A DNA stretch of 56,824 nt from Terriglobia bacterium (GCA_020072655.1 JAIQGH010000003.1:1-56824), one strand, 5' to 3'. Numbered from the stretch's first letter, positions 12,721 to 26,672 are shown. Made by a program: numbers and translations. Notes: generated by a model from the letters alone, not told the origin.

Positions 12721-15700
12721 ATGGATAAAAGGCGTGCCCCCCGTCTCGAGAGATGGCTCTCGATAGTTCCCAACGTAGCAGGTGGATTGTCCATCCTCGT
12801 GGCGTTGATTGTCCTAAGCGGGTGGGAGTTCCGCGTCCCCATCTTGAGGAGTTTCTTTCCTGGGCAACCCCCCATGCGCCCCAACGCCGCTTTGTGCTTT
12901 ATCCTTCTTGGCGTCGCCCTCTGGCTACTTCGCGATGAGAGGGTCGCGGGGGCAGGGTGCTTGCGCAGACGGCTTGTGGGCCAGCTCTTCGCCGCGACGG
13001 CTGCACTTATTGGCCTGTTAAGCCTGACCGAATCCCTGCTCGGTGTGGACCTGCGAACCGATCGACTGCTATTCCATAATCTCGCCGCGGACTTCGGCGG
13101 CGCGCATTCCTTGCGTCTCCCACCGACTAGCGCGCTGGGTTTTGCGTTTATCGGCTGCGCACTGCTTCTGCTGGACCGCAGGACACGCCGCGGACGTTGC
13201 CCCACGGAGGTCCTGGCCTTCGTTGGGATCCTCGATGGCGTCTTTGGGATTCTCGATTACGTTCTTCACCCTGCGGTTTCCTCCACGGGCATTGCGGTGA
13301 ACACTTCGGTGCTGTTCGTCTTCCTCGGGTGCGCACTCTTGACCGTCCGCCCGGAACACCGGATTCGGCTCCTTCTCACGAGTCCAGGGCTCGCGGCCAC
13401 GGCCATCCGCCATTTGATGCCTGCCGCGGTGGTCTTGCCGATGCTGGTCGGCTGGTTGGCATGGCGCGGGGAGAGCGGGGGCCTGTACGCTGGGGATGTA
13501 GGCATAGCCCTGACGGTCGTAATGAGTGTTGGTGTCTTGGCGCTCATCGTCTTTTGGAAAGCCGAACATTTGCTGGAAGCCGAAGGAGAAATCCGCAAGC
13601 TCAATGAGGAACTGGAGCAGCGAGTTATCGACCGCACTGCGCAGCTTGAGGCAGCTAACACCCAACTACGGGGAGAAATCATCGAGCGCAAGCGGGCGGA
13701 GGAGGGAGCGTTACGCGCCAAACAGGAATGGGAGCGGACCTTTGACGCCGTGCCGGACCTCATCGCCATCCTGGACGACCGATACCGGATCCTCCGCGCG
13801 AACCGGGCCATGGCTCAACGCTTGGGGGTATCTACGGAGGAGTGCGTCGGGAAGACCTGCTACAAAGTGGTGCACGGGCTGGAATGCCCACCGGCCTTCT
13901 GCCCTCACGCTCACACGCTGGCGGATGGCCAGGGACATCTGACCGAGGTGTGCGAGGGCCACCTGGGTGGTAGTTTTATGGTCAGCACCACACCGCTGGT
14001 GGACGAGCAGGGAAAGCCCGTCGGTTCCGTGCATGTTGCCCGCGACATCACTGAGCGCAAGCGGGCGGAGGAGGCTCTGCGCGCTTCTGAAGAGCGCTTC
14101 CGAGTGCTTTCCGAGGCGATGCCACAGCTCGTGTGGAGCGCCGACGCCATGGGCCTGCTGGATTACTGTAACCAGCGAACCTACGAGTATTCCGGCGTGC
14201 GGCCCGCAGACATCCAGGGTTGGAATTGGGCGTCCATTGTCCATCCCGAAGACCGGGAGACACTTCTGGCCGCTTGGCGTCGGTCCCTCGCCACGGGCGA
14301 GATCTTCGTCAACGAGCAGCGGATACGCCGTGCCGACGGCCAGTTGCGTTGGCACCTGACCCGCGGCGTGCCGGTGCGGAACGAAAAGGGCGAAGTCATC
14401 CGCTGGATCGGCTCGGCCACGGACATCGATGACCAGAAGATGGCTGAGCAGGAATCGGAACGGCGCGTCGCAGAACGCACCGCGGAGTTGGCCAAGTCCA
14501 TGGCCCTCCTCGAAACGGTGACCTCCAACGCGCCGGTGATCCTCTTTGCCACCGACGCCGAAGGTGTCTTCACCGTGCACACCGGCAAGGCGATCCCGGC
14601 AACCGAACGCCAGCCCGGCGAGATCATCGGCAAGCGTTATCAGGAAGTGCTTTCCAACAACCCGCCGGCTCAGGACTATTTCCGACGAGTCTTGAGCGGC
14701 GAGGCGTTCACCGCGGTCGTAGAGGTGCCGAATGGCAACGCCTTTGAGACTCTGTACAGGCCCCTTCGCGATGGGGACGGAAAGATCACGGGCATGATCG
14801 GCCTTTCCATCGATATCACCGAGCGCAAGCGGGCGGAAGAGACGGTAAAGCGAGCCCAGCAGGCCGTGGGGGCCGAACGGCAGCGGTTCAATGACATCCT
14901 GAATGACCTTCCGGCCTATGTGGTGCTGCTCTCGCCGGATTATCACGTGCCCTTTGCCAATCGTTTCTTCCGGGAACGCTTCGGGGAGTCCAACGGTAAG
15001 CGCTGTTATGAGTACCTGTTTGGCCGCAGCGAGCCCTGCGAGATATGCGAGACCTTCACCGTTCTAAAAACCCACGCGCCCCATCGTTGGGAGTGGACCG
15101 GCCCGGACGGCCGCAATTACGACATTTCCGATTTCCCTTTCACCGACACCGACGGCTCCACGCTCATCCTGGAGATGGGCATTGACATCACCGACCGCAA
15201 GCGCGCGGAGGTAGAACTGCACCGGGTCAACCGCGCGCTCCGGACGCTCAGCGAGTGCAACCAAACCATGGTCCGCGCTCGGGACGAGTCGGAATTGCTG
15301 CAAGAAATCTGCCGGATTCTGGTCGAAGAGGGCGGGTACCGGCTGGCTTGGGTCGGTTTCGCCGAGCAGGACGAAGCGAAGACCGTTCGGCCGGTGGCCC
15401 ACTCGGCGGTCGAAGAAGGTTATGTGGAGAATTTGAAGATCACCTGGGCCGACACGGATCGGGGGCGCGGCCCCACGGGCACTGCCATCCGCACGGGCCA
15501 GCCTACGGTTTGCCGGAACATGCTGGAAGACCCCCGATTTGGGCCCTGGCGCGAGGAAGCGGCCCGAAGGGGTTATGCTTCTTCGTGCGCGCTGCCGATA
15601 ATCCTGGGCAGCGAGCCGATTGGGGCACTGGCCGTCTATTCCCCGGCGCCGGATGCCTTCGATACCGCGGAGACACGGTTGTTGACGGAGCTGGCGCTCG

Positions 15701-16809
15701 ACATCGCTTTCGGCCTGCAGGCGTTGCGTACCCGTGCTGAACGTGAGCGGGCGATGGAAGCGTTACAGCGCGCCAGTGCCTACAACCGGAGCTTGATCGA
15801 AGCTAGCCTCGATCCGCTGGTGACCATCAGCCCGGAAGGCAAGATTACCGATGTCAACCGCGCCACGGAGAACATTACCGGTCTCTCCCGGGAGGAATTG
15901 ATTGGCACGGATTTCTCCGATTACTTCACCAACCCGCACAAGGCCCGCGCGGGATATGAAAAAGTGTTCCGCGAAGGCTGGGTGCAGGACTACGAGCTGC
16001 GGGTTCAGCATCGCGATGGTCACGTCACGCCTGTCCTGTACAACGCATCCGTGTATCGCGACCAGGCGGGACGGGTCATCGGAGTGTTTGCGGCGGCTCG
16101 GGATATTATCGAGCGCAAACGGATGGAAGAGGAACTGCGTCAACTCTCCGGCCGCCTGCTTCAGGCCCAGGATGAGGAACGTCGGCGCATCGCCCGAGAT
16201 TTGCACGACAGCACGTCTCAGAATCTTGCCGCCGTCGGACTGAACCTGAGCGTCATAGAAAAATCGGTGGAAATGGGCGAGGCCGCGCAAAAGTGCGTTG
16301 CGGAGAGCATTTCCCTGACCCAGCTCTGTCTCGACGAAATCCGCAGCATATCTTACTTGCTCCATCCACCCTTCCTCGACGAGATGGGTTTGACCTCCGC
16401 CTTAGAATATTATGTGGATGGCTTTAGTCGGCGAAGTGGGATCCAAGTGTCCCTGGCCATCTCACCCGACTTGGGCCGTTTGCCAAAAGACGTGGAGAGG
16501 ACTCTGTTTCGGGTTGTCCAGGAAGGCCTGATGAACATTCTCCGTCACGCCGGAAGCCCCACCGCCAAGATCGGGATTGGCCGCGATTCCCACGGAGTCG
16601 TCCTGGAAGTTCAGGACCAAGGCCGAGGAATACCGACACCCTCTGTTGGGTCTGCCGAAGCGGCACCGGCGATGCCCGGAGTCGGCATCGCCGGCATGCG
16701 GGAGAGATTGAGGCTGCTCGGAGGACAGTTGGAGATCCGCAGCGGCCCTCAAGGTACGACGATCCACGCGACGGTACCGCTTCCCGGAGAGAATTATGAA
16801 GCAGCTTAG
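12721..16809 (+). CDS. Multi-PAS membrane histidine kinase (NarL/DesK-type transmitter)
   Basis: This is a 1362-residue sensor kinase. Residues 1 to about 285 hold several hydrophobic segments that anchor it in the inner membrane; I cannot name this sensor domain. A coiled coil (about 285-335) leads to four PAS domains at about 335-450, 453-575, 590-703 and 720-828. Then come a GAF domain (about 845-1010) and a fifth PAS (about 1014-1134). The HisKA_3 box is RRRIARDLHDST with phospho-acceptor His1162. The HATPase domain covers about 1250-1355 (DQGRGIP, GVGIAGMRERL). The first and fourth PAS domains carry Cys motifs (GKTCYK..ECPPAFC and GKRCYE..EPCEIC) that could bind a metal or sense redox. 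The stop (TAG) overlaps the next regulator by 14 bases. Confidence 0.92.
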   Translation: MDKRRAPRLERWLSIVPNVAGGLSILVALIVLSGWEFRVPILRSFFPGQPPMRPNAALCFILLGVALWLLRDERVAGAGCLRRRLVGQLFAATAALIGLLSLTESLLGVDLRTDRLLFHNLAADFGGAHSLRLPPTSALGFAFIGCALLLLDRRTRRGRCPTEVLAFVGILDGVFGILDYVLHPAVSSTGIAVNTSVLFVFLGCALLTVRPEHRIRLLLTSPGLAATAIRHLMPAAVVLPMLVGWLAWRGESGGLYAGDVGIALTVVMSVGVLALIVFWKAEHLLEAEGEIRKLNEELEQRVIDRTAQLEAANTQLRGEIIERKRAEEGALRAKQEWERTFDAVPDLIAILDDRYRILRANRAMAQRLGVSTEECVGKTCYKVVHGLECPPAFCPHAHTLADGQGHLTEVCEGHLGGSFMVSTTPLVDEQGKPVGSVHVARDITERKRAEEALRASEERFRVLSEAMPQLVWSADAMGLLDYCNQRTYEYSGVRPADIQGWNWASIVHPEDRETLLAAWRRSLATGEIFVNEQRIRRADGQLRWHLTRGVPVRNEKGEVIRWIGSATDIDDQKMAEQESERRVAERTAELAKSMALLETVTSNAPVILFATDAEGVFTVHTGKAIPATERQPGEIIGKRYQEVLSNNPPAQDYFRRVLSGEAFTAVVEVPNGNAFETLYRPLRDGDGKITGMIGLSIDITERKRAEETVKRAQQAVGAERQRFNDILNDLPAYVVLLSPDYHVPFANRFFRERFGESNGKRCYEYLFGRSEPCEICETFTVLKTHAPHRWEWTGPDGRNYDISDFPFTDTDGSTLILEMGIDITDRKRAEVELHRVNRALRTLSECNQTMVRARDESELLQEICRILVEEGGYRLAWVGFAEQDEAKTVRPVAHSAVEEGYVENLKITWADTDRGRGPTGTAIRTGQPTVCRNMLEDPRFGPWREEAARRGYASSCALPIILGSEPIGALAVYSPAPDAFDTAETRLLTELALDIAFGLQALRTRAERERAMEALQRASAYNRSLIEASLDPLVTISPEGKITDVNRATENITGLSREELIGTDFSDYFTNPHKARAGYEKVFREGWVQDYELRVQHRDGHVTPVLYNASVYRDQAGRVIGVFAAARDIIERKRMEEELRQLSGRLLQAQDEERRRIARDLHDSTSQNLAAVGLNLSVIEKSVEMGEAAQKCVAESISLTQLCLDEIRSISYLLHPPFLDEMGLTSALEYYVDGFSRRSGIQVSLAISPDLGRLPKDVERTLFRVVQEGLMNILRHAGSPTAKIGIGRDSHGVVLEVQDQGRGIPTPSVGSAEAAPAMPGVGIAGMRERLRLLGGQLEIRSGPQGTTIHATVPLPGENYEAA

Positions 16810-17215
16810 CATCCTTCTCGTTGATGATCACGAAGTGGTCCGCCGGGGGTTGCGCGCCTTGCTCGCAACCCAGGCGGGATGGGAAGTAGTCGGCGAGGCG
16901 GTCAACGGCCGAGAAGCCGTCGAAAAGGTGAACCAGCTCAAGCCCGACGTTGTCGTCATGGATATCACCATGCCGGGGATAAATGGCTTTGATGCTACGC
17001 GCCTGATTATGGAGGCCGCTCCCCACACGAAGGTGCTCATCTTCACCATGCACCATTCGGAACAGATGGTCGAGACCGCTCTCAAGGTGGGGGCCCGAGG
17101 GTATGTGCTGAAGTCCGAGGCGGGGAGTGATCTCATTGCCGCCCTAAACGCGTTGTCGGAGAAGACGACCTTTATCATGCCCCAGGCGGTCCGACGCCTC
17201 CCGAGAACCGCTTGA
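16796..17215 (+). CDS. Receiver-only response regulator coupled to the kinase
   Basis: The 139-residue protein is a single CheY-like domain. It has the acid pair Asp10/Asp11 (LLVDDHEV), phospho-acceptor Asp56 (VVVMDITMPG), Thr84 and Lys106 (YVLKSE). It starts 14 bases inside the kinase gene, so translation is likely coupled and it is the probable phosphate acceptor. Close relatives in the NarL/FixJ class continue into a LuxR-type helix-turn-helix. Here the frame stops soon after helix 5 and no such domain is found downstream in any frame. It is therefore either a true single-domain relay or a truncated regulator. A complete NarL-type regulator follows 235 bases later. Confidence 0.85.
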   Translation: MKQLSILLVDDHEVVRRGLRALLATQAGWEVVGEAVNGREAVEKVNQLKPDVVVMDITMPGINGFDATRLIMEAAPHTKVLIFTMHHSEQMVETALKVGARGYVLKSEAGSDLIAALNALSEKTTFIMPQAVRRLPRTA

Positions 17216-17328
17216 GGGCGAGGCCGGAGGATCGCAAGATTCCACGCCTCGACAGCCCAGGCGACACAGATTCACTCAGGAATAAGTGGTTTCACCGTCG
17301 TAAGGAATGCGATAGAATCCGCGCCTGG

Positions 17329-17374
17329 GTAGCACCCCGATTCATGGGGGCAAAGGCCGGGCGAAAGCCCAGCA
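17329..17374 (+). repeat. Dispersed palindromic repeat, copy A
   Basis: The copy starts GTAGCACCCCGATTCATGGG and continues to a GCCGGGCGAAAGCCC hairpin. Related copies lie at 36313-36390 and 44739-44822, each just upstream of a plus-strand gene. All share GTAG, a CCCGAT..ATCGGGG-type hairpin and a GCCGGGC/GCCCGGC hairpin. This copy is the most degenerate. Confidence 0.4.
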
Positions 17375-17449
17375 CGACGTCCCCAATGAGGACGCCACCC
17401 ACTTCTAGTGGTAGGAAACACACCGATATTGACCTGTAATCGAAATTCT

Positions 17450-18127
17450 ATGGATAGGACTCCTCCGGCGGTCCGCATCCTGATCGCGGATGACCATCAA
17501 ATCTATCGGATCGGTCTGCGGCGGGTATTCGAGAGCGAGGCGGGATTCCAGGTAGTGGGCGAGGCCGCCGACGGCGAGCAGGCGATTCGACTGGCCAAGC
17601 AACTCAAACCGGAGATCCTGCTGCTGGACCTCGCCATGCCGCGCCGGACCGGCCTGGAAGCCCTGCGCGAGTTGTCCGCCGCTGCCATCCCGATGCGGGT
17701 CATCGTGCTGACGGCCGCCATCGAGCCGCCCCAGGTCGTCGAGGCGCTCCAACTCGGAGCGCGTGGCATCGTCCTGAAGAGCGTCGGGGCTGCGCAAATG
17801 CTGATCAAAAGCGTCCGCGCCGTCATGGCGGGCCAATACTGGGTCGGCCACGAAAGCGTCTCGGACCTGGTGAAGACCTTGCGTGACCTCATGCCGCAGG
17901 TGGCGGAGGGGGCGCGGAAGAAAACCTTCGGGCTCACGTCGCGTGAACTCGAGATCGTCGGAAAGATCGTTCTGGGGTGCACCAACAAGGACATCGCCCA
18001 CGAGGCCTCGATCACCGAAGACACTGTAAAGCGTCACCTGACCAACATCTTCGATAAAACGGGAGTCTCCAACCGCCTGGAACTCGCCCTATTTGCCCTC
18101 AAGCATCAGCTCGTCGGCGACCTGTAG
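17450..18127 (+). CDS. NarL/FixJ-family response regulator
   Basis: Starting at ATG 17450 the product is 225 residues. An in-frame GTG at 17408 is possible but adds 14 residues not typical of the family. The receiver domain has the acid pair in LIADDHQ, phospho-acceptor Asp60 (ILLLDLAMP), Thr in VLTA and Lys in VLKSVG. A LuxR-type helix-turn-helix follows at about 158-222 (FGLTSRELEIVGKIVLGCTN, then DIAHEASITEDTVKRHL). It is the DNA-binding partner most likely addressed by the upstream kinase. A perfect palindrome lies about 160 bases past its stop, in front of the first PilZ gene, and could be its operator. The stop is TAG. Confidence 0.9.
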   Translation: MDRTPPAVRILIADDHQIYRIGLRRVFESEAGFQVVGEAADGEQAIRLAKQLKPEILLLDLAMPRRTGLEALRELSAAAIPMRVIVLTAAIEPPQVVEALQLGARGIVLKSVGAAQMLIKSVRAVMAGQYWVGHESVSDLVKTLRDLMPQVAEGARKKTFGLTSRELEIVGKIVLGCTNKDIAHEASITEDTVKRHLTNIFDKTGVSNRLELALFALKHQLVGDL

Positions 18128-20493: not shown

Positions 20494-22488
20494 ATGCTAC
20501 ATCTTAGCTCCTCCCAGCGGATGGTCACTCCTAGCCGAGGGGGGGCTTTCCTCGTTTCGGCACTGTTGACCTTCTTGTGGCCCGTCAATGCCCCGGCTCA
20601 GATCTCGCCGGGGCCGCTCGCTGTCCAGGGCTCACCAGTCGCTCAGCGGCACTCTGCAGTGTACGAGTTGCCACAGGCTTGCGGCTGGCTCGGGACTCTA
20701 TCGGTGCCGGGAATGCCACACCGACATCGCCTCGCGGATCTCCGCGGGGCGTGGCTATCACGCTACCGTGCCCCGTCCTACTGGCACTGACAAAGATTGC
20801 GTTGCTTGCCATTCCGAACACAACGGAGAGAATTTCCAGCTAATTCACTGGGAACCGTCCGAAAAAGCCTTCGATCACAGCAAAACGGGATACGTGCTGG
20901 AGGGTAGGCACTCCGAGCTTACGTGCCAGCAGTGTCACCATGCCAGCCACATTCCCGAGGCCCAGCGCGGGTCCATCAAGATGAAGGACCTGAGCCGCAC
21001 CTTCCTCGGCTTGTCGCGCGATTGCCTCACTTGCCACGCGGACCAGCACCGCGGGCAGTTGGGGAAGGACTGTCTCCGCTGTCACACGTTCAACGATTGG
21101 AAGAAGGCGACAGGTTTCAACCACGCCAAGACTAGGTTCCCCTTAATCGGAGCGCACGCGCAGGTTGCGTGCGAGAAGTGTCACAAGCCATCGCCGAGCG
21201 ATCCGAAGGTTCTCCGCTACGTTGGATTGGCCTTCGAAAGTTGTACGGCGTGCCATAACGACCCGCACCACGGCAGCTTCAAGGCAAACTGCGAATCCTG
21301 CCACAATTCGGTTGACTGGAAGCAGATCGCCCCCAACCGCTTGACGGCTACCTTCGACCACTCAAGAACCAACTACCCTTTGCTGGGCAAGCACGCCGAG
21401 GTGCGCTGCGACATATGTCACCATGGGGCCGGATTCAATACCCCCCTACCCCACGCAAAATGTGCGGATTGCCATACCCCCGACCCTCACAGGGGCAGTT
21501 CCGGGCACGCAAAGATGGCGGCGCCTGCGAGGCTTGCCACACCGTGGAGGGATTCAAGCCCTCGAAGTTTGGAGTGGAGGAACACGCCGCCAGTGCCTAC
21601 CCTCTGGAAGGAAGGCACGCCGCCGTTCCCTGTGCCAAGTGTCATATCCCTGCCGGGACGGCCACGCTTTACAGGGTCAAGCACGACGAGTGTTGGAACT
21701 GCCATGCGGACATCCACAAAGGCCAGTTCGCGGGGCTACCGTACAACAACCACTGCCAGAGCTGCCATACGGTTACCGAGTTTACCCCCTCGACGTTTCC
21801 TCTGACCCGTCATGGCAAGACACGATTTCCCCTCACAGGTGCCCATATTGCCGTACCCTGTGGCGATTGCCATCAAGCTAAGAAGCCGCTGGAGGCGAGC
21901 CTTCCGGCGCCGTACCGCTTCAAAGACTTATCTTGCACGGAGTGCCACACGGATCCACATAACGGCCAGTTTGCCGAGCGAATGAGAACAGTGGGGACGA
22001 ACGGCGGGCCAGTAGGCTGCGAGGCGTGCCACTCCACAAAAGCTTGGTCGGATAACGTCCGGTTCGACCATTCCACCACAACGTTCCCGCTTATCGGGAC
22101 GCATCGCGCGGTTTCATGCACAAACTGCCACAAGCCGCCCAACCTTGAGCTCACAATGAAGAATGTGGTTTTCAAGGCGGCGCCGACCCAATGCGAGGGC
22201 TGCCACGATGATCCACACGCTAGCCAGTTTGCCAATGGGGGGCGCAGCCCCGGTTGCGCCGACTGCCACAATACGAACAAATGGAAACCGTCTTTGTTCG
22301 ATCACGAGACTCGGACGGACTTCCCCCTGAAGGGGGCCCACCAGAATGTTCCGTGTGGGGGTTGCCACAAATTGATTCGAGAGGTCCAGAACAAACCAGT
22401 TCTTTTCTATAAACCGACCCCAAAGGAGTGCGCTGCCTGCCATGGTTCCGGCAAGCCCAGTCAGACCACCGGGGTGACCCCGGAATAA
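20494..22488 (+). pseudogene. 23-haem secreted c-type cytochrome broken by two frameshifts
   Basis: A signal peptide (about 35 residues, ending NAPAQ) opens the frame at ATG 20494. After a shift near 20615-20625 a long frame holds 11 CxxCH motifs. After a second shift near 21496 another frame holds 12 more and ends TAA at 22486-22488. At the second point the expected HRGQFRARK is restored by adding one C. Seven repeats follow the pattern F-D-H-S-x-T-x-Y/F-P-L-x-G-x-H-x-x-V-x-C-x-x-C-H. With 23 haem sites in about 660 residues it resembles large periplasmic or surface electron carriers of anaerobic respiration and extracellular electron transfer. Real decay or two indel errors are both possible; the preserved haem motifs favour recent damage or error. 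Confidence 0.85.
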
Positions 22489-22776
22489 GTAGACTCGTCA
22501 ACTGTTGGTGGCCGGTCCGGGACGCGAGGGAAGGCAATAAAATTCCAACCTGGAAGAAAATCTTTCGCCATAGTCATCTGCGCAATTGACGGATACCAGG
22601 CCTTGTCAAGACCAGCTTAACATCCAATTTTCATCATCACTTCCGGAAACCCCAGTCTCCGGAACGTCATATGGGTATAATGTCCGAATTGTGTTCCACC
22701 GGAGCACTAATTGCTGAAGGTTTGGCTCTTTTCCTAACTCAGGCGTCAGGGAACTACGACGGGCATGACACTTTGT

Positions 22777-22845
22777 CCTACGGCAAAAGTGAGGGGTCGC
22801 CTCCACCGGTCGGGGATTGGCACATCGCCGGTCTGTCAGTAATTT
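22777..22845 (+). promoter_or_regulatory. Shared promoter module P3, upstream of the outer-membrane-like gene
   Basis: CCTACG at 22777, CTCCACCGGTCGGGGATTGGC ending at 22821, then TTGGCA (22817-22822), a 17-base spacer and TAATTT (22840-22845). The spacing between CCTACG and TTGGC is 40 bases, identical to P1 and P2, although the sequence between them is diverged. It places the start of the downstream gene at ATG 22880. Confidence 0.55.
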
Positions 22846-22879
22846 CTTCCAGAATGCGCATTGCGTTGCGTCTGGGTCG

Positions 22880-23428
22880 ATGGTCCTGCTGATCATCAGC
22901 GCTGGCCGCCTCTTGGCCCAGGGTTCTGACGCCGGCCTGCGCACGGAGTTCCGCGTGAAATATGTTGCAGCCGGAGCAGTGTACTTGGATCACGGCAACA
23001 ACGCTGGCCTGGAAGTGGGCAGGAGTTCCGCGACCGGAGATGCACGCAGCTCATTGAACCAAATGTACGGGGTCACGATGGGCAGGATCTGGAAAACGGG
23101 AATCCGGGGAGACGTGAAGTATTCAGAATTCAGCAGCTCCTTTGGGCGGGGGAATTATAGCGTGCTCTCTTTGTCCCGCTCTTTCCGGGAAACGCTCCAG
23201 TGCGAATTCCTGATGGGAAAACAGAATCTCGTTTCTCCTCTCACCCGTAATTCGAGCTACCGAAGCTTGGGGGGCAACGTCAACTGGTTCCCGAGAATGC
23301 CGATGTATTTCGACGGCGGCTTTACGCGGCAGCACGGGACGATTCAGAACTACAACCAGTGGTACATCGGCCTCGGCTATCGGTTCGATTCCTTTAGGCA
23401 GCGCGGGCGCGCATCGGAGGCTAAGTAA
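22880..23428 (+). CDS. Putative outer-membrane beta-barrel protein
   Basis: The product is 182 residues if ATG 22880 is used; an earlier TTG at 22817 would overlap the promoter module. A short hydrophobic leader ends at LLAQ. Then follow YVAAGAVYLDHGNNAGLEVG and alternating hydrophobic/polar strands (GIRGDVKYSEFSSSFGRGNY, YFDGGFTRQHG, QWYIGLGYRF). The aromatic-ending final strand is typical of outer-membrane barrels. It is short for a stand-alone porin (about 8 strands). It is the first gene of a tightly spaced trio: its TAA overlaps the next ATG by one base. I do not recognise a named family. Next to a multiheme cytochrome, a conduit or anchor role is a reasonable guess. Confidence 0.6.
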   Translation: MVLLIISAGRLLAQGSDAGLRTEFRVKYVAAGAVYLDHGNNAGLEVGRSSATGDARSSLNQMYGVTMGRIWKTGIRGDVKYSEFSSSFGRGNYSVLSLSRSFRETLQCEFLMGKQNLVSPLTRNSSYRSLGGNVNWFPRMPMYFDGGFTRQHGTIQNYNQWYIGLGYRFDSFRQRGRASEAK

Positions 23429-24243
23429 TGACAGGACGAAAGGCTTTATTATTGGCCGCTCCGCTCCTCGCAGGGAGCCTGCTCTTTTCCCCCGAGGTGC
23501 TTCGGGCCGCAGATTCCGCGCCGGTCTCTCCTCGCGTTGCCCCCGCGCTCGACCGCACGGCAGGCCTTGTTGAGGGATTCCTCAAGGAACTCTCGGACGT
23601 CGAATGCCTCGAGGAAGTGTCGCAACTCAAGTTTTCCAAAAGCGACAAGGTCGAATACCAGGAGAAGTCCGAGTTCGACTACGTGGTGCTGTTTCAGGAT
23701 ACGTCAGGCGAGCCGACACTGACAGAATCACGCCTGGCCAAGCAACGCCCACGCCGCGCTGCAAAAGCCTCCATGTTGATCACGAACGGCTTTTCGATAT
23801 TGTTATTGATCTTTCACCCGCATTACTCGTCGAGTTTTGAGTTTACGGATGAGGGAGACGAGTCCGTTGACGGCCGCGAATGCTTCAAACTGCATTTCCG
23901 GCATATCAAGGGATTGCGCTCCACCAGCGTCCTCATGCTCCGCGGCCGCGAGTATCCACTGGACCTCGAAGGGACGGCTGATATTGACGAATCTTCCGGG
24001 GCGGTTGTGCGAATGACCGCTGCTCTTGAGTACTCCATGGAGGACGTTGGCCTCCGCTCCCTTCGGACGGAAGTCCAATATGCGCCGGTGAATTTCCAGG
24101 GAGTATCCCACCCTTACTGGCTCCCGTCTTCCGCGGTCATCGACGTCGAATCGCCGCATCAGCACTGGCGAAACCTGCATCGGTTCACCTCGTATCACCG
24201 GTTCGCGACGAGTGTGGATGAAAAGAGGGGCGCGCCAAAATGA
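23428..24243 (+). CDS. Exported hypothetical protein, second gene of the electron-transfer trio
   Basis: A 271-residue protein with a signal peptide (about 1-28, ending EVLRAAD). Beyond it there is no haem or metal motif. The sequence alternates beta-strands in a manner reminiscent of the LolA/LolB-like open barrel (SSFEFTDEGDESVDGRECFK and REYPLDLEGTADIDESSGAV). One hydrophobic stretch lies around 120 (ITNGFSILLLIFHPHY). Homologous hypotheticals are common in Acidobacteriota. Its ATG overlaps the previous stop and its TGA overlaps the next ATG (ATGA), so the three genes are almost certainly co-translated. No function can be assigned; periplasmic location is likely. Confidence 0.7.
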   Translation: MTGRKALLLAAPLLAGSLLFSPEVLRAADSAPVSPRVAPALDRTAGLVEGFLKELSDVECLEEVSQLKFSKSDKVEYQEKSEFDYVVLFQDTSGEPTLTESRLAKQRPRRAAKASMLITNGFSILLLIFHPHYSSSFEFTDEGDESVDGRECFKLHFRHIKGLRSTSVLMLRGREYPLDLEGTADIDESSGAVVRMTAALEYSMEDVGLRSLRTEVQYAPVNFQGVSHPYWLPSSAVIDVESPHQHWRNLHRFTSYHRFATSVDEKRGAPK

Positions 24244-25181
24244 GTACAACCACTGCCCCTGCGATACTTGAATCGGCTCCGCCGTCCTCCCCAAGATGGC
24301 ACCGCCTGAAGTTGCGAGCGGGCTATTTCCTGGCGACGTCTCTCGTCGTCGCGGTGGCCCTCTATGGGTTTGATTACTACCTCCTGGATTCCACGCAACG
24401 GCCGTTTTCGCCGAAGCACCTGATCCTGAAACCGAACGGTGAGTTGGGCCTGTGGCTCGGCATCTTCGGAGCGCTCGTTTTTCTCGGAATTTTTCTCTAT
24501 CCCATCCGCAAACGTTCGGCCTGGCTCCGGAGTCGGGGGAACACAAGGCATTGGCTTGATTTCCATGTGCTAATGGGCCTCACCGCGCCCTTTATCATTG
24601 CCTTCCATGCGTCGTTCAAGTTCGGCGGCCTGGCCGGAGTGGCTTTCTGGATTATGACCGCCGTGGCGGTCAGCGGGGTGGTCGGTAGATATCTTTATGC
24701 GCAGATCCCGCGCAGCCTGAATACCGCCGAGCTTTCACTCCAGGAGGCCCGGGACGAGCAGGCGCGGCTCACCGAACAACTCGGCCGTCAGCAGCTTTTT
24801 TCGGCTTCCTCATTGGCTCCGCGGTTCCGACTCCCTAGCGAGGAGAAAGTTCGTTCAGAGCCTTTGCTCTTTGCGCTCGGGAGCATGATGCTCCTTGATT
24901 TCCTGCGTTTCCTTCACATCGCCCGCTTGCGCGTGCGGGTGCTGGGCTTCTGGAGCAGGCTGGGCACTTTGGGCGGCATCCTCCCCTCCGGGAATGCGGA
25001 AGTTGAGCGCGTGTTTGCCATGGCGCGGAGGCAAGCCGGCCTCTCGAAACGCATCCTGTTCCTCTCGCGCACGCACCAGGTGTTTCATTACTGGCACGTG
25101 ATTCACAGGCCGTTTAGCTACTCGTTTGCTCTCTTGGCTCTCATTCACATCACCGTGGCCATACTCTTTGGGATTCGTTAA
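24240..25181 (+). CDS. b-type-cytochrome-like inner-membrane protein
   Basis: The 313-residue protein has about six membrane segments (roughly 27-47, 70-90, 107-127, 131-152, 207-227 and 292-311). Histidines are placed for haem b: His109 and His123 in one helix (LDFHVLMG..IIAFHASF), and a cluster His279, His283, His286, His289 with His303 near the end. A charged cytoplasmic or periplasmic region (160-205) includes a short coiled coil. The pattern recalls di-haem membrane anchors of electron-transfer complexes, but it is not a textbook family member. It overlaps the upstream gene by four bases. It may pass electrons between the quinone pool and the periplasmic or outer-membrane cytochrome. The direction is unknown. 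Confidence 0.65.
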   Translation: MSTTTAPAILESAPPSSPRWHRLKLRAGYFLATSLVVAVALYGFDYYLLDSTQRPFSPKHLILKPNGELGLWLGIFGALVFLGIFLYPIRKRSAWLRSRGNTRHWLDFHVLMGLTAPFIIAFHASFKFGGLAGVAFWIMTAVAVSGVVGRYLYAQIPRSLNTAELSLQEARDEQARLTEQLGRQQLFSASSLAPRFRLPSEEKVRSEPLLFALGSMMLLDFLRFLHIARLRVRVLGFWSRLGTLGGILPSGNAEVERVFAMARRQAGLSKRILFLSRTHQVFHYWHVIHRPFSYSFALLALIHITVAILFGIR

Positions 25182-25292
25182 GGTGGGCACGGGCCGAAGA
25201 AGCTGCGGGTACCGCTTGCGAGCCCGGCCAGAGTAACCGTCCCGCGTATCCCTTCGCCGTTCCGCTTGGGGGCCGTCGGCGCAAATGGCGCG

Positions 25293-26672
25293 CTAAGCTG
25301 AAACCGGCTGCTTTCTGGCCAGGGCCTGTTGTCTGGTCTCGTTGCTCGCTTCCACGGTGAGGTCGCGCGCTCCGAACTCGACACCGATTCTCTTTAGGAA
25401 ATCATTGGGCGGGACCCCGCCGGCGAAAATCCAGACGAAATCGTTGGGAATCTCCCGCACCTCCCCGTTGATATCGAGGACGACCACGTCCTTCCGGATC
25501 TCCGTGGGGGCCGAATTGAAAACCACATTCACCTTCCCCCCGCGGATGCATTCTTCGATGCGCCGGGCGTTCCGTTCTTTGATGCGGCTAAAGGCCTCTT
25601 TCCGGTAGGAGAGTGTAACCTGGTTGCCTTTCTGCTGCGCGAGCCCCATCGCCGCCTCAACGGCGCTGTCGCCGCCTCCGACGACGAGGATTCTCTTGTT
25701 GATGTAATGGTCCGCCTCGATCAAGCGATACATGACCTTCGGCAGTTCTTCCCCTTTGATTCCAAGTTTTCGTGGCGTGCCGGTCCGTCCGAGCGTCAGG
25801 ACCACCGCGTGTGCGCGGTACTGGCCGTTGTTCGTCACAACCGTAAAGATGCCATCCGCGCCTTTCCGGACATCCACGACCAGCTCACCGGTCCGAACCT
25901 TGAAATCCGCCCGTTCGAGGATTTTCTTCCAGAAGGCTAGGAGGTCCTCCTTGGAAAGCTCCATCTTCGCGAATCTTCCGTACATGGGAAATTCTACCGG
26001 ACTCGTCATCACCAGTTTCTGGCGCGGGTACTTCGCCACCGTGCCTCCAATCTCGTCCCGCTCCAGGGTCAGATAATTGAGCTTCTTCTCGATGGCGCGC
26101 AGCGAGGCGCTGATCCCCGCGGGGCCGGCTCCCAGGACCAACACATCATAAACGCCCGGCAGCGACCGGGCAGCGCCCAGGTTGGCGAGTCGTTTGGCAA
26201 CGGTATCGACGCAAGCGCGCCCTTGGTTGATGGCGTTCTTAATCAAAGCCAAGCCGCCGAGTTCCCCGGCAATGAACATGTTCGGGACGCTCGTCTCATA
26301 CTCGGGAGTCAGGTACGGCAATTCCGCGCCCATGCTCGGGCTGGCCATCACCATCGTAATGGCGCCGACAGGACAAGCCTCCGCGCACAGGCCGTGCCCG
26401 ACGCACTTGTAGGCGTTCACGAGCGCCGCTTTGCCACCCAGCATGGCCAGGACGTCGCCCTCCGGGCACACCGCAGTGCAACTCTGGCAGCCGATGCAAT
26501 GGGTCGTGTCGATGTGGGGGTGCTGCGCCTTGGGCCCCTCAGAAAACAACTTCCCTTTCTCCGCGGCCTCCCGCGCCAGAGCCGCCCGTTTCTTTTGGCT
26601 CCGCAGATACAAGGCCATGGGGACCAGAATCACCAGGGCGTAGAAACCGTAGATCAAAAGCGAACTTACCAT
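25293..26672 (-). CDS. Membrane-anchored ferredoxin/FAD-NAD(P) oxidoreductase
   Basis: The 459-residue protein joins three parts. An N-terminal membrane helix covers about 4-24. A ferredoxin domain holds two cluster motifs: C59-x2-C62-x2-C65-x3-C69, and a second with C90, C96 and C100, where His93 occupies the usual second Cys position. A thioredoxin-reductase-like flavoprotein part has the FAD motif VLGAGPAG near 180 and the NAD(P) motif VVGGGDSAVEAA near 320. It lies convergent to the cytochrome trio. An electron link between NAD(P)H, ferredoxin and the membrane is likely. The His in the second cluster might tune its potential; I have seen this substitution in the same protein type, so it need not be a defect. 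Confidence 0.85.
   Translation of the reverse strand: MVSSLLIYGFYALVILVPMALYLRSQKKRAALAREAAEKGKLFSEGPKAQHPHIDTTHCIGCQSCTAVCPEGDVLAMLGGKAALVNAYKCVGHGLCAEACPVGAITMVMASPSMGAELPYLTPEYETSVPNMFIAGELGGLALIKNAINQGRACVDTVAKRLANLGAARSLPGVYDVLVLGAGPAGISASLRAIEKKLNYLTLERDEIGGTVAKYPRQKLVMTSPVEFPMYGRFAKMELSKEDLLAFWKKILERADFKVRTGELVVDVRKGADGIFTVVTNNGQYRAHAVVLTLGRTGTPRKLGIKGEELPKVMYRLIEADHYINKRILVVGGGDSAVEAAMGLAQQKGNQVTLSYRKEAFSRIKERNARRIEECIRGGKVNVVFNSAPTEIRKDVVVLDINGEVREIPNDFVWIFAGGVPPNDFLKRIGVEFGARDLTVEASNETRQQALARKQPVSA

Follow-up and report, generated by a model that had tools for sequence, protein, structure and literature searches.

The region from 20,494 to 26,672 in a stretch of DNA from a Terriglobia bacterium (hereafter the window, which denotes the whole 56,824 nucleotides analysed) encodes haem-rich cytochrome sequence, a barrel-like protein, an exported protein, a membrane protein and a ferredoxin/FAD-NAD(P) oxidoreductase. 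Does it specify a complete and compact electron route through the cell envelope, as a preliminary description proposed, or what is left of one? Acidobacteriota are among the commonest soil bacteria and, to our knowledge, few of their extracellular electron routes have been described. Comparison with relatives indicates that the locus is probably a recently decayed copy of a six-gene acidobacterial envelope electron-transfer operon, the intact form of which is a proposed electron route.

The six genes are termed MHC1 (the 23-haem cytochrome), MHC2 (the second cytochrome), barrel, EXP (the exported protein), CYTB (the predicted inner-membrane cytochrome b) and FDOR (the oxidoreductase). Only EXP, CYTB and FDOR are intact in the window (Table 1). 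The window belongs to a draft genome of 4.36 Mb in 209 contigs, 96% complete; MAGs of Terriglobia and of other Acidobacteriota are its closest named relatives. Upstream of the locus, positions 12721-18127 encode a protein of 1362 residues and, after it, two response regulators.

Table 1. Features of the locus, in positions of the window
Feature	Position	Strand	Remarks
MHC1, signal peptide and first residues, before the +4 frameshift	20494..20620	+	frame 1
MHC1 part a, 11 haem motifs	20621..21490	+	frame 2; 67% identity to residues 46-336 of L038 MHC1
MHC1 part b, 12 haem motifs	21484..22488	+	frame 1 again; 62-65% identity to residues 333-671 of L038 MHC1
Site of MHC2 in relatives; MHC2 deleted in the window	22489..22816	+	about 330 bp left, no MHC2 similarity
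Barrel gene with internal in-frame deletion	22880..23428	+	residues 8-43 joined to 430-559 of a 565-residue same-genus relative
EXP, exported protein of predicted LolA-superfamily fold, intact	23428..24243	+	predicted model and Foldseek
CYTB, predicted inner-membrane cytochrome b, two H-x13-H pairs, intact	24240..25181	+	invariant His pairs in alignment
FDOR, predicted membrane-anchored 2x[4Fe-4S] ferredoxin / FAD-NAD(P) oxidoreductase, intact	25293..26672	-	Pfam Fer4, Pyr_redox

The six genes occur together in relatives

A first search, carried out with CYTB in 60 related genomes, yielded homologues. A scan of GTDB contigs with the same protein gave 220 relatives; 80 of these were kept, all of them (80/80) from Acidobacteriota, and profile searches recovered the other genes of the set around them. 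Loci were counted as well-flanked when the available sequence extended from CYTB by 8.5 kb or more upstream and by 3 kb or more downstream, and duplicates were dropped (n=39). The six genes are found together in 36/39 of these acidobacterial loci, or in 37/39 if EXP is left out of the count, usually in the order MHC1, MHC2, barrel, EXP, CYTB, FDOR. The same genes in the same order recur in scores of species, far beyond chance. Membership of a conserved porin-cytochrome-like locus, which the preliminary description had suggested, is thus borne out by co-occurrence elsewhere. The six-gene set was not found described in the open-licence literature, supplements aside.

More distant families retain parts of this arrangement. 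The order CYTB-MHC1-MHC2-barrel is seen in loci L136 and L144, and in L145 together with FDOR; elsewhere partial sets are present, and FDOR is absent or apart in some distant loci. A search of plasmid records gave the full set on a single plasmid, pEMTOL02 of Emticicia oligotrophica (Bacteroidota), which carries CYTB, FDOR, a 23-haem MHC1 and a 40-haem MHC2 without EXP. Its barrel candidate was recognised by a barrel-profile match (E=2.3e-12), and the set adjoins a cytochrome c assembly gene.

Plasmids of Bradyrhizobium, Variovorax, Alteromonas and Methylophaga (L125-L128) carry a three-gene set of a 2Fe-2S protein, a CYTB-like protein and a cytochrome c3, adjoining hydrogenase genes on the Alteromonas plasmid. 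This set resembles the porin-free cytochrome/inner-membrane-protein pairs of He et al. 2017.

MHC1 is split and MHC2 is deleted in the window

Among MHC1 relatives, each of the 45 complete ORFs has 23 haem motifs; the only other counts, 2, 4, 19 and 19, come from four ORFs that are split or broken. The window holds the same total, with 11 CxxCH motifs in ORF 20588-21805 and 12 in ORF 21415-22488, as first counted. The two ORFs lie in different frames, and Pfam assigns both parts to Cytochrome_C7 and Cytochrom_CIII. The cytochrome does not form a single open gene, since it is interrupted by two frameshifts, +4 near 20616-20623 and -1 near 21490. Its start matches those of L038 and L041 up to ...NAPAQISPGPL; four extra bases (a GCTG/CGCT duplication) then follow the signal peptide and are read as a tandem duplication. 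The signal peptide sits in a separate ORF (20494-20790).

MHC2 is present in nearly all relatives. Its haem number varies from 15 to 61 (23-51 in the usual-order loci near the first CYTB homologues) and takes the form 3n+1 in 41/56 cases. Every third haem motif is mostly spaced by 73-78 residues, as tri-haem tandem repeats. With MHC1 fixed at 23 haems and MHC2 following 3n+1 with a regular repeat, MHC1 appears to be constant in size while MHC2 gains and loses tri-haem units. In the window, no MHC2 remnant was detected in the 330 bp between MHC1 and the barrel gene, and a copy sought in the rest of the 96%-complete genome was likewise not found.

The largest MHC2 among those examined, with 61 haem motifs in 1527 residues, is at L106:2979-7559.

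The barrel gene retains only its two ends

Intact barrels of relatives are about 550-650 amino acids long. An AlphaFold2 model of the intact L041 barrel, of moderate quality (mean pLDDT 68.3, pTM 0.60), has 22 strands beginning at residue 144, as expected of a many-stranded porin at moderate confidence. The window product retains the signal peptide, the beginning of the N-terminal domain and, of about 22 strands, the final 7; it does not itself amount to such a porin. The earlier view of it as barrel-like therefore holds for the full-length relative, for which a barrel with about 22 strands is predicted, but not for the window copy, a 7-strand deletion remnant. A full barrel was looked for elsewhere in the genome, and the window remnant proved to be the sole barrel homologue. 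Pfam gave no match for 22817-23428. The best Foldseek matches of the barrel model were general barrels only (ushers, MOMP, Occ porins, AlgE), and MtrB was not among the best 50.

Some barrels are far longer. At L045:6624-9080 and L052:5425-9141 they reach up to 1239 residues, with an AMIN domain at the N-terminus and, ahead of the barrel, a long linker rich in Pro, Ala and Thr; AMIN scores above the Pfam cut-off at the N-terminus of some long barrels. The AMIN domain binds the cell wall in other proteins, and in the long barrels AMIN and linker are possibly a cell-wall tether.

Probable decay of the window copy

For the pieces of MHC1 and barrel, similarity to the relatives is as high as that among the relatives themselves. 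This lack of extra divergence indicates that the breaks are recent or, less likely, artefacts. The damage consists of two separate deletions and two indels within one 3 kb stretch, a combination that makes an artefact less likely, and we infer that the breaks are biological. CYTB, which serves as the marker of the operon, was found in 41/396 genomes sampled across Acidobacteriota and is missing from most genomes of the window organism's own family, which suggests that loss is common there. Having lost its outer half, the window copy is not expected to pass electrons across the outer membrane any longer. Neither the completeness nor the compactness of the route as originally described survives: MHC2 is lost, the barrel truncated and MHC1 broken, and the small barrel is a deletion product rather than a design.

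The strongest competing explanation is that the organism has an intact operon and that the faults arose in assembly, through omission of MHC2 and of a portion of the barrel and through false indels in MHC1. A draft genome in 209 contigs, the survival of all 23 haem motifs and the undiverged state of the broken parts would agree with this, and MHC2, as a tandem repeat, could be collapsed by assemblers. However, MHC2 is not shortened but wholly gone, including its non-repeat ends, and the non-repetitive barrel has a separate deletion of its own. The missing parts of MHC2 and barrel are on no other contig, and the other long ORFs of the window are open. Neither a listing of ORFs nor a frame scan by codon usage clearly pointed to frequent frameshifts in the contig, although the scan, being blind to cytochrome genes, is uninformative for MHC1. 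We regard an assembly artefact as unlikely.

Less likely again is a trimmed but working form, in which MHC1, EXP, CYTB and FDOR would serve as an inner-membrane/periplasmic route without an outer-membrane part, the MHC1 frameshifts being errors or bypassed. Precedents can be named, as the cultured Acidobacteria bacterium AB60 has MHC1-EXP-CYTB-FDOR without adjoining MHC2 or barrel (L110:6593-12286), and L132 has CYTB, a 23-haem MHC1, barrel and FDOR with no recognised MHC2; EXP, CYTB and FDOR are moreover open in the window. Against these, the AB60 genome has two full barrels elsewhere whereas the window's genome has none, MHC1 carries two separate frameshifts, and a truncated barrel remains in the operon, as decay predicts.

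A genuine compact variant with a small barrel, as first proposed, is very improbable: the small ORF is open and begins with a signal peptide, but it aligns to both ends of barrels of about 560-600 residues across a 386-residue gap and retains an odd 7 of 22 strands, while the nearest relatives carry a long barrel and MHC2 and the same short barrel without MHC2 was seen in no other species.

Recent decay of a six-gene operon thus best accounts for the window copy, which offers an example of such a locus in the process of loss.

The intact proteins EXP, CYTB and FDOR

The reading of 23428-24243 as an exported protein was confirmed. A Pfam search with EXP gave no match. Its predicted model (mean pLDDT 86.5) matched LolA3, DUF1329, LolA and RseB in Foldseek (E 3e-7 to 1e-4), the TM-score being about 0.4 for LolA3, NE2245 and LolA (E down to 3e-7), and the fold is predicted with good confidence to be that of the LolA superfamily.

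CYTB had been described as a membrane protein with possible haem sites; the former is confirmed and the latter are supported by its His pairs. The window protein has the motifs W105-x3-H109-x13-H123 and W285-x3-H289-x13-H303 with SGxxG (S145-G149) between them, and H109/H123 and H289/H303 are invariant in the alignment of relatives. Both H-x13-H pairs, like SGxxG, are present in 90/90 copies, and both W-x3-H-x13-H motifs in 89/90. The members of each His pair are 14 residues apart and the pairs lie on separate membrane helices, the arrangement that characterises a di-haem cytochrome b. These His motifs point to CYTB as a predicted membrane cytochrome with two b haems. Pfam gave sub-threshold PepSY_TM and DUF4405 only, and no sequence match was found in the PDB.

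In two genomes of the same class (L028:2851-12370 and L029:4054-14041), a distant CYTB homologue is found between Fe-S/NADH-dehydrogenase-like large proteins and a 10-haem cytochrome, with a 9-haem protein of about 1240 residues alongside. This arrangement appears to be another kind of route from NAD(P)H to cytochrome.

The facing ferredoxin/FAD protein with an N-terminal helix was also correctly recognised. In FDOR a membrane helix at the N-terminus is followed by the basic stretch RSQKKR, from which, by the positive-inside rule, the redox domains should face the cytoplasm. All 83 acidobacterial sequences (83/83) have the Fe-S motif CxxCxxCxxxCP and then CxxHxxCxxxCP, in which His replaces Cys. 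The Emticicia protein keeps the second motif (CVGHGACFHACP) and has Ser in the first. Residues of about 173-448 match the flavoproteins YpdA, ferredoxin-NADP reductase 2 and thioredoxin reductase (7a7b, E=3.8e-31; 3lzw, E=7.8e-16), to which FDOR adds the front membrane helix and the two Fe-S motifs. Between the Fe-S part and the FAD domain of FDOR lies a segment with weak matches (E 0.0045 and 0.36) to the FAD-contact segment at the C-terminus of the GOGAT small subunit and of trypanothione reductase. This segment is usually C-terminal, whereas in FDOR it appears to lie ahead of the FAD domain. This suggests, as a lead only, that the FAD domain may be circularly permuted.

In the window and its two closest relatives (L038:9796-11430 and L040:6596-8005), FDOR runs opposite to CYTB, a lineage-specific rearrangement.

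Comparison with known conduits

PCC3 is a putative porin-cytochrome cluster described in Proteobacteria in 2017 (He et al., PMC5566968), and PCC3 of Gallionellaceae has also been treated (PMC10734462). The inner-membrane proteins of PCC3 and PCC4 have two W-x3-H-x13-H motifs, a signature of two b haems, and PCC3 cytochromes have 22-39 residues per haem with a median of 26 (PMC5566968). Both PCC3 clusters of Sideroxydans ES-1 are downregulated under Fe(II) (PMC8788666).

Set against the published architecture and motif description of PCC3, the intact set shares a many-stranded porin and two very haem-rich cytochromes, one fairly constant and one very variable in haem number. It also shares a low residue-to-haem ratio with sequence repeats (medians here of 29.9 in MHC1 and 26.0 in MHC2) and an inner-membrane protein of about 300 residues with two W-x3-H-x13-H motifs and SGxxG. 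In 37/39 well-flanked loci the components of a PCC3 gene cluster stand together: a porin, an inner-membrane protein and two multihaem cytochromes. The window copy, with MHC2 absent and its porin truncated as well as MHC1 frameshifted, does not make a complete cluster of this kind. The intact set differs in being found in Acidobacteriota and on one Bacteroidota plasmid rather than in Proteobacteria, and in having FDOR and, in Acidobacteriota, EXP, neither of which is among the named PCC3 components. For the intact operon the best reading is a PCC3-type conduit for extracellular electron transfer that brings its own flavoprotein, linked to NAD(P)H or ferredoxin. The six-gene system is real and widespread, and departs from PCC3 by FDOR, EXP and phylum.

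MtrCAB and OmbB-OmaB-OmcB share the general plan of a barrel with multihaem cytochromes, but have 10+10 and 8+12 haems against 23 and 15-61 here, and are without a CYTB-type inner-membrane partner or FDOR. By haem counts and fold search, the intact set does not have the MtrB/OmbB-family porin and cytochromes of about 8-12 haems that mark these systems. The statement that no standard set is matched accordingly stands for Mtr and Omb-Omc, but the intact operon does match PCC3 in architecture and inner-membrane motifs.

Within Acidobacteriota, a 2026 study of MAG porin-cytochrome clusters (PMC13264449) reports a ferredoxin-NADP+ reductase gene nearby in 7/11 group 1 clusters; these reductase-bearing clusters centre on a decahaem cytochrome of 4-5 kbp, unlike the six-gene set. 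The Holophaga clusters of 2020 (PMC7399161) are MtrB-like and ExtB/E-like; these and the clusters of 2026 share with the six-gene set the phylum and the combination of a porin with multihaem cytochromes. Neither publication, in its available text, describes six genes of this kind with a 23-haem MHC1.

A proposed electron route of the intact operon

In the intact form, FDOR, with FAD, two Fe-S clusters and an inner-membrane anchor, would exchange electrons with NAD(P)H or ferredoxin, and the two b haems of CYTB would carry them across the inner membrane. MHC1 would act as a 23-haem wire of fixed length spanning the periplasm. MHC2 would be a wire of variable length, made of tri-haem repeats, which extends to the outside and either sits on the barrel of about 22 strands or passes through it. 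The periplasmic position given to MHC1 and the outward one given to MHC2 follow from their lengths, constant in the former and varying in the latter, as in the periplasmic and extracellular cytochromes of PCC3. EXP, as judged by its modelled fold, may help to place a lipoprotein or another hydrophobic part of the complex. Electrons could flow outward to Fe/Mn oxides or humics, or in reverse, for uptake, and quinones may take part.

We tentatively entertain the stronger possibility that the intact operon represents a separate class of extracellular conduit, with a link to NAD(P)H or ferredoxin in the cytoplasm beyond any link to quinones. It would combine a periplasmic wire fixed at 23 haems, and an outer one evolving by tri-haem units, with a flavoprotein that has a His at an Fe-S ligand position and a circularly permuted FAD domain. 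The constant 23 haems against the variable 3n+1 constitute a natural experiment on the sizing of haem wires. Cultured carriers of CYTB exist, namely Occallatibacter savannae (L102) and Acidobacteria bacterium AB60 (L110), which makes parts of the operon testable.
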